50,076 nucleotides of DNA from an uncultured Gammaproteobacteria bacterium (GCA_947259075.1 CAMYKQ010000019.1:1-50076), one strand, 5' to 3'. Positions 6,817 through 11,104 are shown, numbered from the stretch's first letter. Numbers and translations are program-made. The notes: a model not told the origin generated them from the letters alone.

Positions 6817-7212
6817 TTATTCCGGCTCCAGCTTTAGCGCCACGGAGTTGATGCAATAACGCAGGCCGGTGGGCTCGGGACCGTCGCTGAACACATGACC
6901 CAAGTGCGCGCCGCAGGCCTTGCACATCACCTCGGTGCGGGTCATGCCGTGACTGCTGTCGCGCTCGGTGGCGATCTGCCCCGCATCCGCCGGCTGATAA
7001 AAACTCGGCCAGCCCGACCCCGAGTCGAACTTGGTCTGCGCGTCGAACAAGGCCGCGCCACAGCACACGCAGTGATACACGCCCGGCTCCTTGCAATCCC
7101 AATATTCACCACTGAAGGGCGCCTCGGTGCCCTTGCAGCGGCAGACATCAAATTGCTCCGCGCTCAGTTCGCTGCGCCATTGTCCCTCGGACTTACTGAC
7201 CTTTCCCACCAT
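6817..7212 (-). CDS. msrB: Peptide-methionine (R)-S-oxide reductase MsrB
   Basis: Reduces methionine-R-sulfoxide in damaged proteins using thioredoxin. The 131-residue protein carries the structural zinc ligands C48-x2-C51 and C97-x2-C100, the signature [11 protein letters not shown], and the catalytic Cys at 120 ([10 protein letters not shown]). A strong AAGGAGG ribosome site precedes the ATG. It converges on yrfG with nine bases between stops. No msrA is present nearby. Confidence 0.96.
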
Positions 7213-7349
7213 CTAGCGTCCTCCTTCACCTTTCAATAGTGCCCCGCACAACGCCACCGCCGCGCTGCGACCTTTTGTCACACGACAAGCTCCGCGCCCC
7301 ACGGCATAGTTAACACTTTAATTTCAGAAAGCATACTCGAGGGACCGCC

Positions 7350-8345
7350 ATGAAAAAAACCATCGTGCTGCTCACCGGCCTGCTGGGCGCGCTGCCCGCG
7401 ATGACGCCCAACGCGCTGGCCAGCTGCGGCTCGGCCAATTGTTTCCTCGTCACCGGCGCCCAAGAAGGCGCGGCGGCGGCCGACCAGCTCATCATCGACC
7501 TATCCTACCGTTTCATCCCCATGGATCAACCGCAGCACGGCAGCGATAGCGCGGCCGAGGCCGTCACCCCGGCCATCGATTTCGCCAGCGGCGTCATCGA
7601 GCCCGACCACCACCGCGAAGTGCGCACCAACAACGAACTCCTGCAAATGGACTTGAGCTACGGCCTGAATGAGCGCTGGACCCTGGCCGCCAACCTGCCT
7701 TTAGTGAACAACCGCCGCCACGAGCACTATCACCTCACCCCCACCAGCGAAACCTTTCTGCAGGAAGACTTCACCGGTCTGGGCGATATCCGCTTCAGCG
7801 CGCGCTACACCGCCGTGCAAAAAACCAAACACGGCCTGATCGTCGGCGCCGGCCTCAAGGCCCCCAGCGGTGAATACAAATTGCTCAACTCCGACGGGGA
7901 GATCAGCGAGCCCACCATCATGCCGGGCACCGGTTCCTGGGACGGCGTGTTCTCGGGCCACTACCAATACCACATCCGCCCCCATCGCATCAGCAGCTTC
8001 GTCTCCGGCTCCTATCAAATCACGACGGAGAACAGCCTGAATTATCAATTCGGCAACACCCTCATCCTCAACACCGGCCTGGTGTACACGGTGCACACCG
8101 ACAAACGCGCCATCAGCACCAGCCTGCAGCTCAACGGCCGTTACGCCCCGCGCGACGAATTCCACGGCGAAGAGGTGCCCAGCACCGGCGGCACCTGGAT
8201 TTATCTCACCCCCGGCGCGCAGATCCAGCTCAGCGATACCACCGCCATTTACACACATGTGCAAGTGCCGGTGTATCAATACGTCAACGACAGCAATCTC
8301 GTGCCGCGCTACGGCTTCATCCTTGGCGCGTCCTTCAATTTCTGA
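7350..8345 (+). CDS. Probable outer-membrane beta-barrel protein
   Basis: A 331-residue protein with a clear Sec signal peptide (MKKTIVLLTGLLGALPAM...ALAS). Mature protein starts SCGSANCFLVTGAQEG with a Cys-x4-Cys pair. Alternating hydrophobic beta-strand patterns run to the end, which finishes in ...YGFILGASFNF, the terminal Phe typical of outer-membrane barrels. A His-rich stretch (PDHHREV, NNRRHEHYHL) lies in the first third. The ATG follows GAGGG. It heads a three-gene operon with a propeller lipoprotein 19 bases downstream and a TlpA-like thioredoxin. It resembles uncharacterised 'transporter' barrel proteins; the substrate is unknown. Confidence 0.75.
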   Translation: MKKTIVLLTGLLGALPAMTPNALASCGSANCFLVTGAQEGAAAADQLIIDLSYRFIPMDQPQHGSDSAAEAVTPAIDFASGVIEPDHHREVRTNNELLQMDLSYGLNERWTLAANLPLVNNRRHEHYHLTPTSETFLQEDFTGLGDIRFSARYTAVQKTKHGLIVGAGLKAPSGEYKLLNSDGEISEPTIMPGTGSWDGVFSGHYQYHIRPHRISSFVSGSYQITTENSLNYQFGNTLILNTGLVYTVHTDKRAISTSLQLNGRYAPRDEFHGEEVPSTGGTWIYLTPGAQIQLSDTTAIYTHVQVPVYQYVNDSNLVPRYGFILGASFNF

Positions 8346-8364
8346 TTTAACGGGAGAGAACACC

Positions 8365-9906
8365 ATGCTCACAAGATCACCTCGCGCACCGCTGTTCGCC
8401 GCCCTCGCCGCCCTCGCGCTAGGCGGCTGCGTGGAACAGGCCAATCCGCCCAATACCTCACTCAACACCACACCGGCCAGCGGACAAAGCGACACGGCCG
8501 CCGCCAGCCCCTTGGTGCTGGTCGCCGACACCGCCAACGGCCAAGTGGTGGTGATCCGCCACGCGGGCGACACCGACAACAGCGTCAGTCAAAAACTGGC
8601 GGTGGGCGTGAGCCCCGGCGACATCACCGTCACCGCGCGCGGCCACATCTTCGTCAACGTCACCGGCTCCAATCTCGTGGCGGCACTGGACCCCGAGAAC
8701 GGCCAGCTCAGCTTGAACAGAAACATCGCCGCCGGCACCCGCCCCGTGCACGGCTTCCTCGACCCCGACGGCACGCGGGTGTGGGCGCTGAACGACGGCG
8801 ACGGCACCAGCGGCGCCGACCCCATCCGCTGCGCCGCCAGCGGCAGCGGCTCGGCCACGGTGATTGAAGATAGCAGCGAGACCGGCGATCACGCCGCCCG
8901 CCTCGCCCGCCACGCCGGCGAAGACCACGGCGGCGACACCGCCGGCGGCGATACGGACAGCCCGGCCGCGGACGACATCGCCGCCCTCGCCCACATCTGC
9001 CTCGGCAAGGGCCACAAAAAAGCGGCCTTCAGCGTGCCGAGCGCCGATTTGCCCGCGACCCCGCGCCGCGCCTTCATCAGCAACCTCAAGGACGGCACGG
9101 TATCGGTGGTCGACAACGAACCCGCCTCCGCGACCTATCTCAGCGTGCTCGCCACCATCGATCTCTGCGACGCCAGCAAAGCGGCCTGCGACGGCGACAG
9201 CAGCACCCCCAACGGCGCGGTGCCGCACGGCCTGGCCTTCTCGCCGCTCAGCGGCAAGATCTACAACGCCAACGTCGGTTACGGCACGGTGGCGGTCATC
9301 GACCCGGCCGGCATGCGTATCGAAAAAATCCTCGACATCGGCTTCGCTAACAAAATCCACCTCAGCCCCGGCGGCCGTTTTCTCGTGACCAAGGGCGCCG
9401 ACACCAGCGGCAATCCCAATCACGTGATCGGCAAACTGGCGGTGGTGGACCTGCTCAACGACGCCGTCACCCCCTTCGACCTGAGCGACATCTATCCCGA
9501 CGACTTCGTCTTCACCCCCGACGGCGGCAAACTCTATCTCGCGACGGCCAGCGGCGGCAGCGCCGCGCAAAAGGCCAATCTGAAAAACAATGTCGTGCTG
9601 GTCTACGATCTTTCCACCCCCGGCGCGCCGACGCTGATTAAAGAGATCGCCGTCGGCGCCACCGACGGCGGCCACCGCGCCCTGGCCCTGCACGCCCACG
9701 ACGGCCTGGCCAAACACCTGTTCGTGCCCAACGCGGCGGACGGCACGGTGTCGATAATCAAAATCAGCACGGATGAGGTAGTACAGACCGTGGACGTGGA
9801 CGGCAAGCCCGGCGCCATCAGCGTCTACCTGCCGCCCGTCAGCGCGGCCGCCGACCACGACGCCAGCACCGGCGAACACGCGCATGCTTTATTCGCGCGC
9901 AATTAA
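8365..9906 (+). CDS. His/Asp-rich beta-propeller lipoprotein (YVTN-like repeats)
   Basis: The ATG at 8365 follows GGGAGAGA and opens a lipoprotein signal with lipobox LALGGC. The 513-residue product contains repeated strand patterns of YncE/YVTN-type propellers: PLVLVADTANGQVVVI, RRAFISNLKDGTVSVVDN, GKIYNANVGYGTVAVIDP, and KHLFVPNAADGTVSII. Between two blades is a low-complexity insert rich in His, Asp and Gly (HAARLARHAGEDHGGDTAGG), and the C-terminus is also His-rich. Two Cys pairs (IRCAA/HICLG and DLCDASKAACDG) may form disulfides. The location is probably the periplasmic face of the outer membrane. Metal binding is plausible but unproven. Confidence 0.75.
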   Translation: MLTRSPRAPLFAALAALALGGCVEQANPPNTSLNTTPASGQSDTAAASPLVLVADTANGQVVVIRHAGDTDNSVSQKLAVGVSPGDITVTARGHIFVNVTGSNLVAALDPENGQLSLNRNIAAGTRPVHGFLDPDGTRVWALNDGDGTSGADPIRCAASGSGSATVIEDSSETGDHAARLARHAGEDHGGDTAGGDTDSPAADDIAALAHICLGKGHKKAAFSVPSADLPATPRRAFISNLKDGTVSVVDNEPASATYLSVLATIDLCDASKAACDGDSSTPNGAVPHGLAFSPLSGKIYNANVGYGTVAVIDPAGMRIEKILDIGFANKIHLSPGGRFLVTKGADTSGNPNHVIGKLAVVDLLNDAVTPFDLSDIYPDDFVFTPDGGKLYLATASGGSAAQKANLKNNVVLVYDLSTPGAPTLIKEIAVGATDGGHRALALHAHDGLAKHLFVPNAADGTVSIIKISTDEVVQTVDVDGKPGAISVYLPPVSAAADHDASTGEHAHALFARN

Positions 9907-10411
9907 ATCCGCCTTGCGCCGGTTAACGCCGTCCCTGCTGGGCGGCGTCCTCTTTTTCTCCGCCGCGGCGCAGGCCGCGCAATTCAGCGCGGGCGCGCCA
10001 GCACCGGATTTCACCGCGCCCGCGCTGCAAGGCCCGCCCATCACGCTCGCCGCCCTGCGCGGCAAGCCGGTGCTGCTGGCCTATTGGGCGAGCTGGTGCG
10101 CCCCCTGCCGCAGGGAACTCGACACCCTGCAAAAACTACACACGGCGGGTAATCTGAAATTCGCCATCGTCGCATTGAATCTCGCCGAGACCCGCGAGAC
10201 GGCGCGTGACTATGCGGCGCGACGCGGCTTGTCACTGCCCATCGCACTGGACTTAGAGGGCGACATCGCCGCGGACTACCAGGTGCTCGCCCTGCCCGCC
10301 AGCTTTCTCATCGATGGCGAGGGACGCATCGTCAAACGCTTTTTGGGTGAACTGAGCGCAGAAGATATAAACGCCGCCGTGGCGGCGGCGTTAAAGATCA
10401 CTACGCAATAA
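9884..10411 (+). CDS. TlpA-like thiol-disulfide oxidoreductase
   Basis: A 175-residue exported thioredoxin-fold protein. The N-terminal hydrophobic segment ends near AQAAQF, and the redox motif WCAPC has its cysteines at 72 and 75. The AhpC/TSA-type pattern (GAPAPDFTAPALQG, LPASFLIDGEGRIVKRF) and the cis-Pro (ALPAS) are intact. The ATG lies 23 bases inside the end of the propeller gene, in another frame, which implies translational coupling. It may reduce cysteines in the two upstream envelope proteins or act as a metallochaperone-type reductase; this is inference from position. Confidence 0.85.
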   Translation: MLYSRAIKSALRRLTPSLLGGVLFFSAAAQAAQFSAGAPAPDFTAPALQGPPITLAALRGKPVLLAYWASWCAPCRRELDTLQKLHTAGNLKFAIVALNLAETRETARDYAARRGLSLPIALDLEGDIAADYQVLALPASFLIDGEGRIVKRFLGELSAEDINAAVAAALKITTQ

Positions 10412-10435: not shown

Positions 10436-11104
10436 TCAGGACAACAGCCGCACCACCGCCTCCGCGGCGGCGGCGCTCGATTGCGGGTTTTGCCCCGTCA
10501 CCAGCCTGCCGTCCACCACCACGTTTTCTTGCCAATTGGCGGCGGGCTGCACTAAGGCGCCCAACTCGCGCAGCTTGCTTTCCAACAGAAAGGGCATCAG
10601 CTTATCGAGCTGCGCCTCGCGCTCCTCGGCGTCGGTGAAGGCCGCCAGCTCGCGCCCGCGCACCAGCGGCGCGCCGTCGCGGCCTTTCGCCTCCACCAGC
10701 GCGGCCGGACCGTGACACACCGCGGCCACCACCTTGCCTTCGTCGAGAAAGCGGCTGACCAGGGCCGCTACTTCGTGATTGTGCGGAAAATCGAACATGG
10801 TGCCGTGGCCGCCGGGAAAGAACACCGCATCATATTCGGTGACGTCCATCTCCATCAGGCGTTGACTGTGCTTGAGCGCCTCGTGCGGCCCCTTGACCTC
10901 CAACGCCTCTTGATCCGCCGGCTCGCTGCGCGGGTCCACCGGCACCTTGCCGCCCTTGATGCTGGCCACCGTCACCACATAACCCTCGGCGGTGAAACGC
11001 TCGAAGGGCACGGCGAATTCCTCGAACCACAGACCGGTGGGATGGGCCGCGTCGATACGGCCATAACTGGTGGTCACCATGAGTATGCTTTTGCTTGCGT
11101 CCAT
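10436..11104 (-). CDS. DJ-1/PfpI family protein (type 1 glutamine amidotransferase-like)
   Basis: A 222-residue cytosolic protein of the Hsp31-like branch. The nucleophile-elbow motif AAVCHGPAAL places Cys at 130 and His at 131, and an acidic residue for the triad lies in TGLWFEEF near 28. Motif FFPGGHGTMFDFPHN is characteristic of this branch. Family members act as glutathione-independent glyoxalases, deglycases or chaperones; which applies here cannot be read from sequence. It stands alone, followed by converging tlpA-like gene 24 bases away and preceded by a repeat-rich gap. Confidence 0.88.
   Translation of the reverse strand: MDASKSILMVTTSYGRIDAAHPTGLWFEEFAVPFERFTAEGYVVTVASIKGGKVPVDPRSEPADQEALEVKGPHEALKHSQRLMEMDVTEYDAVFFPGGHGTMFDFPHNHEVAALVSRFLDEGKVVAAVCHGPAALVEAKGRDGAPLVRGRELAAFTDAEEREAQLDKLMPFLLESKLRELGALVQPAANWQENVVVDGRLVTGQNPQSSAAAAEAVVRLLS

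Follow-up and report, generated by a model that had tools for sequence, protein, structure and literature searches.

In an uncultured gammaproteobacterium we find three closely spaced genes, encoding an outer-membrane barrel, a propeller lipoprotein and a periplasmic TlpA-like protein, which we tentatively interpret, at a little less than an even chance, as a mobile cassette that handles a thiol-loving transition metal at the outer membrane, a copper-like metal being the likeliest candidate. The genes lie within a 50,076-nucleotide stretch of DNA, hereafter the window (GCA_947259075.1, CAMYKQ010000019.1:1-50076), and each belongs to a known fold, while the combination of the three is apparently undescribed. 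Judged by sequence comparison, all three (Table 1) are protein-coding beyond doubt, because orthologues at about 41-58% identity exist in another phylum. The trio is probably a mobile kit that moves or reduces metal across the outer membrane, since the same trio is carried on metal-resistance plasmids of Candidatus Manganitrophus (Nitrospirota), and the most probable job we can assign to it would be thiol-maintained metal handling.

Table 1. Features of the three-gene operon and its flanks, numbered from the first nucleotide of the window.
Feature	Position	Strand or orientation	Remark
msrB	6817-7212	divergent	upstream flank of operon
Perfect inverted repeat TTGTCACACGACAA (TTGTC-ACAC-GACAA)	7275-7288	.	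msrB/barrel intergenic region, upstream of operon; possible operator
Weak sigma-70-like promoter TTAACA-16-CATACT	7310-7337	+	consensus scan: 1 found, 0.5 expected
Outer-membrane barrel gene	7350-8345	+	first gene of trio
Propeller lipoprotein gene	8365-9906	+	second gene of trio
TlpA-like gene	9884-10411	+	third gene of trio
DJ-1/PfpI gene	10436-11104	convergent	downstream flank of operon

The three genes lie exactly where the sequence-only reading had placed them, with a 19-base gap between barrel and propeller and, if the first possible ATG is the TlpA start, a 23-base overlap between propeller and TlpA. The inverted repeat ahead of the operon is the sole match in the window, with 0 mismatches (0.75 matches with one mismatch or fewer are expected by chance), and it also fits TTG-N8-CAA, the general pattern of Crp/Fnr-type sites. 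A scan for intrinsic terminators did not clearly exceed shuffles, and an Rfam search returned one sub-threshold snoRNA match, which we regard as chance.

The first gene encodes a 12-stranded barrel of the COG4313 / Phenol_MetA_deg type. Its AF2 model (pLDDT 84.9; Manganitrophus rows were excluded from the AF2 input alignments) has the 12-stranded outer-membrane fold of COG4313 / PF13557 channels and aligns with the COG4313 channel 4rl8 at a VIA-align Z of 27.5 (rmsd 2.2 over 256 residues) and with FapF at 25.3, all other barrels among the matches listed scoring below 20. The window protein itself passes no Pfam or NCBIfam cut-off and has no PF13557 match; its Manganitrophus orthologue, 56% identical, reaches 53.4 bits with PF13557 (cut-off 22). 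The cysteine pair that had been noticed in the barrel proved real: C26 and C31, positions 2 and 7 past the predicted signal cleavage site, are invariant in 15/15 aligned homologues, where RxH124 is nearly invariant as well. The N-terminus of COG4313 channels fills the lumen, as do the first residues in 4rl8, before the first strand (PMC4493636), and we borrow the lumen position of the Cys-bearing N-terminus from that structure because residues 1-30, which hold the pair, are modelled at low confidence (<50 pLDDT). The window barrel shares its 12-stranded fold and the placement of its N-terminus ahead of the first strand with known COG4313 channels (Pput2725 4rl8, SphA, TcpY; PF13557), from which its type differs in having a pair of cysteines close to the start of the mature protein and in being linked to TlpA and metal genes rather than to degradation genes. 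Gammaproteobacterial orthologues of 46-57% identity occur in several families, often with TlpA, not the propeller, as the next gene; because most barrel orthologues found have no adjacent propeller, we take barrel plus TlpA to be the conserved core. No barrel relative was found in viral contigs, and a search of genome contigs with a single sequence in place of an alignment returned one locus only.

The third protein combines a signal peptide with a WCAPC motif (C72/C75), the WCxxC arrangement of exported thioredoxins, and matches PF00578 (82 bits) and PF08534 (78 bits) far above their cut-offs. The ResA model gives 99 bits, under its cut-off of 170, and because every NCBIfam equivalog model for TlpA, ResA or DsbE falls under its curated cut-off, we assign the protein to TlpA at superfamily level only. 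Of the 33 barrel relatives whose N-termini could be read, 22 carry the N-terminal Cys pair and 11 do not, and a TlpA-like gene lies within the 1.5 kb flanks of 8/22 Cys-pair barrels, compared with 0/11 Cys-less barrels (Fisher, 0.023) and 0/32 control loci (6e-5), counts that ignore kinship and are indicative only, because the HMM was partly built from the same loci and shared descent was left uncorrected. At one Cys-pair locus (L118) there is an overlap of roughly 20 bases that involves the TlpA gene; at two of the eight (L028, L119) the TlpA gene is oriented towards the barrel gene instead of following it. Near many Cys-pair barrels (L034, L040, L041, L042, L043, L044, L045) we also observed a divergent RegB/RegA-like sensor kinase, in some cases with a response regulator, which suggests redox control.

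The second gene encodes an exported lipoprotein (lipobox LALGGC, Cys22) that is modelled as a 7-bladed YVTN/YncE-like propeller. Its matches to YncE, SGL and YVTN HMMs are weak: one stretch reaches 37 bits against TIGR02276 (cut-off 27.85), and Pfam YNCE stays under its cut-off. The AF2 model (pLDDT 75.4, pTM 0.78) aligns with lactonases, YncE, NirF and BtuG at VIA-align Z of about 22-25, with Z of about 24 for 1l0q and YncE, and no metal-site enzymes beyond these appear among the top structural matches listed. The close propeller family conserves C156 followed by C212-x-G-[KR]-G-[HD]-[HK], and the protein ends in a His-bearing C-terminal tail, with a histidine inside the last eight residues in 8/8 exported relatives compared. 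Between the two cysteines, at about residues 174-210, lies a His/Asp/Gly insert that the sequence-only reading had taken as a signal; it is specific to the window, being absent from every aligned relative including the Manganitrophus orthologue, and residues 173-180 and 183-201 are modelled below 50 pLDDT. The same reading had leaned on His clusters shared by barrel and propeller, an argument that finds no support, since the clusters do not exceed those that shuffled versions of the proteins give (barrel, 3 His in 8 residues, p = 0.23; propeller, 4 in 40, p = 0.88; total His 3.9% and 3.5%, respectively).

In the propeller tree the window protein stands beside the exported Manganitrophus forms and branches basally to the non-exported paralogues, at a fork whose exact support (88/64) is not strong, and a clade linked to DUF3570 is separate (100/100); the tree alone does not prove transfer. 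Propeller paralogues occur in 24/369 gammaproteobacterial genomes, among them all 8 genomes with a strong barrel (p 9e-11, kinship ignored). Because most lack an export signal and no neighbour is common to them across families, these paralogues say little about the operon. They form a family of about 425 residues, mostly without export signal, that is also represented in the window's own genome (L085 366-1760, L086 8065-9345), has a conserved Cys and a CxGxGHH motif, and often occurs in at least two copies per genome.

Outside the Gammaproteobacteria, the barrel, propeller and TlpA genes recur in identical order on Manganitrophus plasmid CP114554, where 25 and then 16 bases separate them, and on CP114562 and CP114559 as partly frame-disrupted copies; CP114558 carries a broken barrel and, separately, the arrangement HupE/UreJ-DUF6488-propeller. 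The three genes accordingly form a conserved unit, as had been supposed, and the prospect that they would not co-occur in other genomes did not materialise. On CP114554 the trio lies near a P-type ATPase gene, and the next 40 kb hold CDF, MerR, RND and CusA/CzcA genes. The same plasmid has, at 219-262 kb (L134), a heavy-metal island in which another propeller gene lies near TolC/RND genes. A few hundred bases 5' of the Manganitrophus barrel we also noted a small, exported-looking His/Cys protein (L080 8125-8448; copies in L081, L082 and L084) with a CutF-like leader layout and no Pfam match.

Presence of the trio is patchy close to home as well. A genome of the same genus (G206) and one of the same family (G081) keep the msrB and DJ-1 flanks with the trio missing and about 1.2 kb of other DNA between them. 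Because the trio is missing between the same flanking genes in a genome of the same genus, we conclude that it behaves like a mobile cassette; the pattern fits acquisition in the window lineage, with loss in the relatives as the alternative. In G206 (contig C54, L112) the intervening DNA ends with an apparent second copy of the msrB 5' end, which looks like the trace of an insertion or duplication at this place, and in G081 (L113) it contains a long, FIST-domain-like ORF of about 377 codons.

The metal role that we propose for the operon draws on neighbours in other genomes. Copper or heavy-metal genes are linked to orthologues or relatives at several loci in addition to the Manganitrophus plasmids: one reads barrel-TlpA-small Cys-rich protein-CusB-CusA/CzcA (L035), another DUF2946-barrel-TlpA-PCuAC (L119), a third has SCO1 close by (L044), and at L031 a PepSY_TM gene and a TonB receptor gene precede the barrel, a layout similar to that of L032. 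Both DUF2946 and PepSY_TM/TonB operons have been linked to copper (PMC9973294, PMC12914433, PMC13038864). The metal-handling idea of the sequence-only reading therefore survives in part: relatives adjoin metal genes (CusB, CusA/CzcA, PCuAC, DUF2946, SCO1, HupE/UreJ, multicopper oxidase and the plasmid islands), but none flanks the operon in the window, where the genes scanned on either side are housekeeping or signalling genes. The flank scan and a search for the copper chaperone PCuAC revealed no copper gene linked to the operon in its own genome, where PCuAC was not found, and the sole HupE/UreJ match there is sub-cut-off and on a different contig.

Two known copper systems are among the closest parallels. 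In Bradyrhizobium, TlpA reduces copper-site cysteines ahead of metallation (PMC7558416), and alphaproteobacterial TlpA/ScoI/PCuAC copper delivery shares with our loci a TlpA-like reductase, the barrel relatives adjoining SCO1 or PCuAC; in the window, by comparison, the partners of TlpA are an outer-membrane barrel and a propeller, in an operon that lacks SCO1 and PCuAC. The CrtA-CrpH copper import operons (PMC12914433, PMC13038864) contain the same gene types that precede the barrel at L031, whereas the window operon has no adjacent TonB receptor or PepSY_TM gene, and the L031 receptor is compared with CrtA by gene type. Our literature search found no paper uniting beta-propeller lipoproteins, the outer membrane and copper.

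We hypothesize that the COG4313-type barrel would provide the route across the outer membrane and that its N-terminal Cys pair would either bind a Cu(I)-like metal in transit or latch the plug according to its redox state. The periplasmic TlpA-like protein would keep this pair, together with C156 and C212 of the propeller, reduced. The propeller lipoprotein may dock on the barrel, where C156, the C212-x-G-x-G-H motif and the His tail could bind the metal or its complex and pass it to or from the channel. Sequences and models establish the three genes with their folds, export signals and conserved cysteines, the conservation of the trio in a second phylum, its presence or absence between msrB and the DJ-1 gene in close relatives, and the association of Cys-pair barrels with TlpA; from these we infer a physical complex, electron flow and a copper-like cargo, whose traffic may amount to uptake, efflux or extracellular reduction.

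The same proteins could be read in other ways. COG4313 channels have known or proposed substrates that are hydrophobic molecules, in whose uptake they are implicated (PMC4493636), and the window barrel might be an ordinary member, its propeller a lactonase-like enzyme or binder and its TlpA simply the factor that folds two Cys-containing partners; TlpA-like proteins are able to act as generic thiol reductases of exported proteins, and the best structural matches of the propeller include a periplasmic gluconolactonase and 6-phosphogluconolactonases (Z about 24.5). We consider this uptake of hydrophobic or organic compounds unlikely, as we noticed no degradation or sugar genes around the loci examined, the neighbours in relatives are metal genes, and the Cys pair, absent from 11/33 readable barrels and so not general in COG4313 relatives, nevertheless accompanies TlpA. 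A propeller acting as a lid on the cell surface, where it would trap a corrinoid or metal chelate and deliver it to the barrel, with TlpA as an accessory, has a precedent in BtuG, which caps BtuB (PMC10404256), and in the XusB lipoprotein, which passes iron siderophores to XusA (PMC13142918). The pairing of an outer-membrane barrel with a lipoprotein partner is common to these systems and ours, a Manganitrophus propeller paralogue comes after HupE/UreJ, and our propeller model aligns with the cobalamin lipoproteins BtuG and BT1954 at Z 22-23, values that indicate fold only because equally high Z is common among the propellers listed. BtuB-BtuG and XusA-XusB are, however, Bacteroides TonB-dependent transporters that have no thiol reductase, whereas the window barrel is a COG4313-type partner that is not TonB-dependent, and such capture strikes us as quite improbable. 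That the three genes are chance neighbours would fit the lack of an adjacent propeller in most barrel-bearing genomes; identical order with small gaps in two phyla argues against it, as does a scattered occurrence, with the site unoccupied in a genome of the same genus, which fits a cassette that moves in one piece, and the Manganitrophus copies already make it very unlikely indeed.

Exported propellers also accompany other barrel families, and these loci bear on what the thiol reductant might do. Members of the distant exported clade occur as TlpA-propeller-DUF3570-DsbD_2 (L131), as propeller-DUF3570-DsbD_2 (L132, L103) and as propeller-DUF3570 at a contig end (L130), and a Porin_4-propeller pair adjoins a multicopper oxidase gene (L133). 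The four DUF3570 loci are DUF3570-DsbD_2-sigma54 regulator operons with exported propeller lipoproteins, and their DUF3570 proteins have an SGAT motif of flavinylation type. DUF3570-DsbD-thioredoxin-DUF4266 clusters have been proposed as extracytosolic flavin/thioredoxin electron-transfer systems (PMC8238504); they share with these four loci a DUF3570 protein and a thiol electron carrier, to which our loci add the distant exported propeller, whereas the window operon has a different barrel family with no flavinylation motif or ApbE seen. Retention of the SGAT motif beside a propeller, together with the occurrence of the trio in Ca. Manganitrophus, might suggest thiol-driven electron export, in which electrons would pass from TlpA (or DsbD_2) through the barrel's Cys plug to the outer face and the propeller would support reduction of an acceptor outside the cell, for example Cu(II), Fe(III) or Mn oxide. 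The window barrel, however, offers two cysteines only and no known cofactor motif, we saw neither an ApbE nor a multihaem gene next to it, the link of Manganitrophus to manganese oxidation is based on gene clusters other than this one (PMC9040806), and the copies on the plasmids sit in a metal-resistance island; we regard electron export as correspondingly doubtful, and no likelier than capture by a lid.

Because the pairing of propeller and barrel recurs, albeit at a handful of loci, the finding rises above a single odd operon. A broader and rather unlikely extension is that several unrelated barrel families (COG4313, DUF3570 and Porin_4) have each been paired with a like exported propeller, usually with a periplasmic thiol reductant as well, to form a general TonB-free, thiol-powered machine for moving or reducing metal, in which the lumen-plug Cys pair of the COG4313 type would be the redox gate.

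The outer membrane is not known to have an energy or electron source except via TonB or multihaem conduits. If our preferred reading of the trio as a thiol-maintained metal handler is correct, genetic coupling of a channel whose plug bears a conserved Cys pair with a thiol reductase of the periplasm would give that membrane a simple means of gating or driving the passage of metals. The trio on the Manganitrophus metal-resistance plasmids also offers a concrete metal-handling candidate in a lineage of interest for its manganese chemolithotrophy, and genes now annotated merely as 'transporter' or 'hypothetical' become testable.
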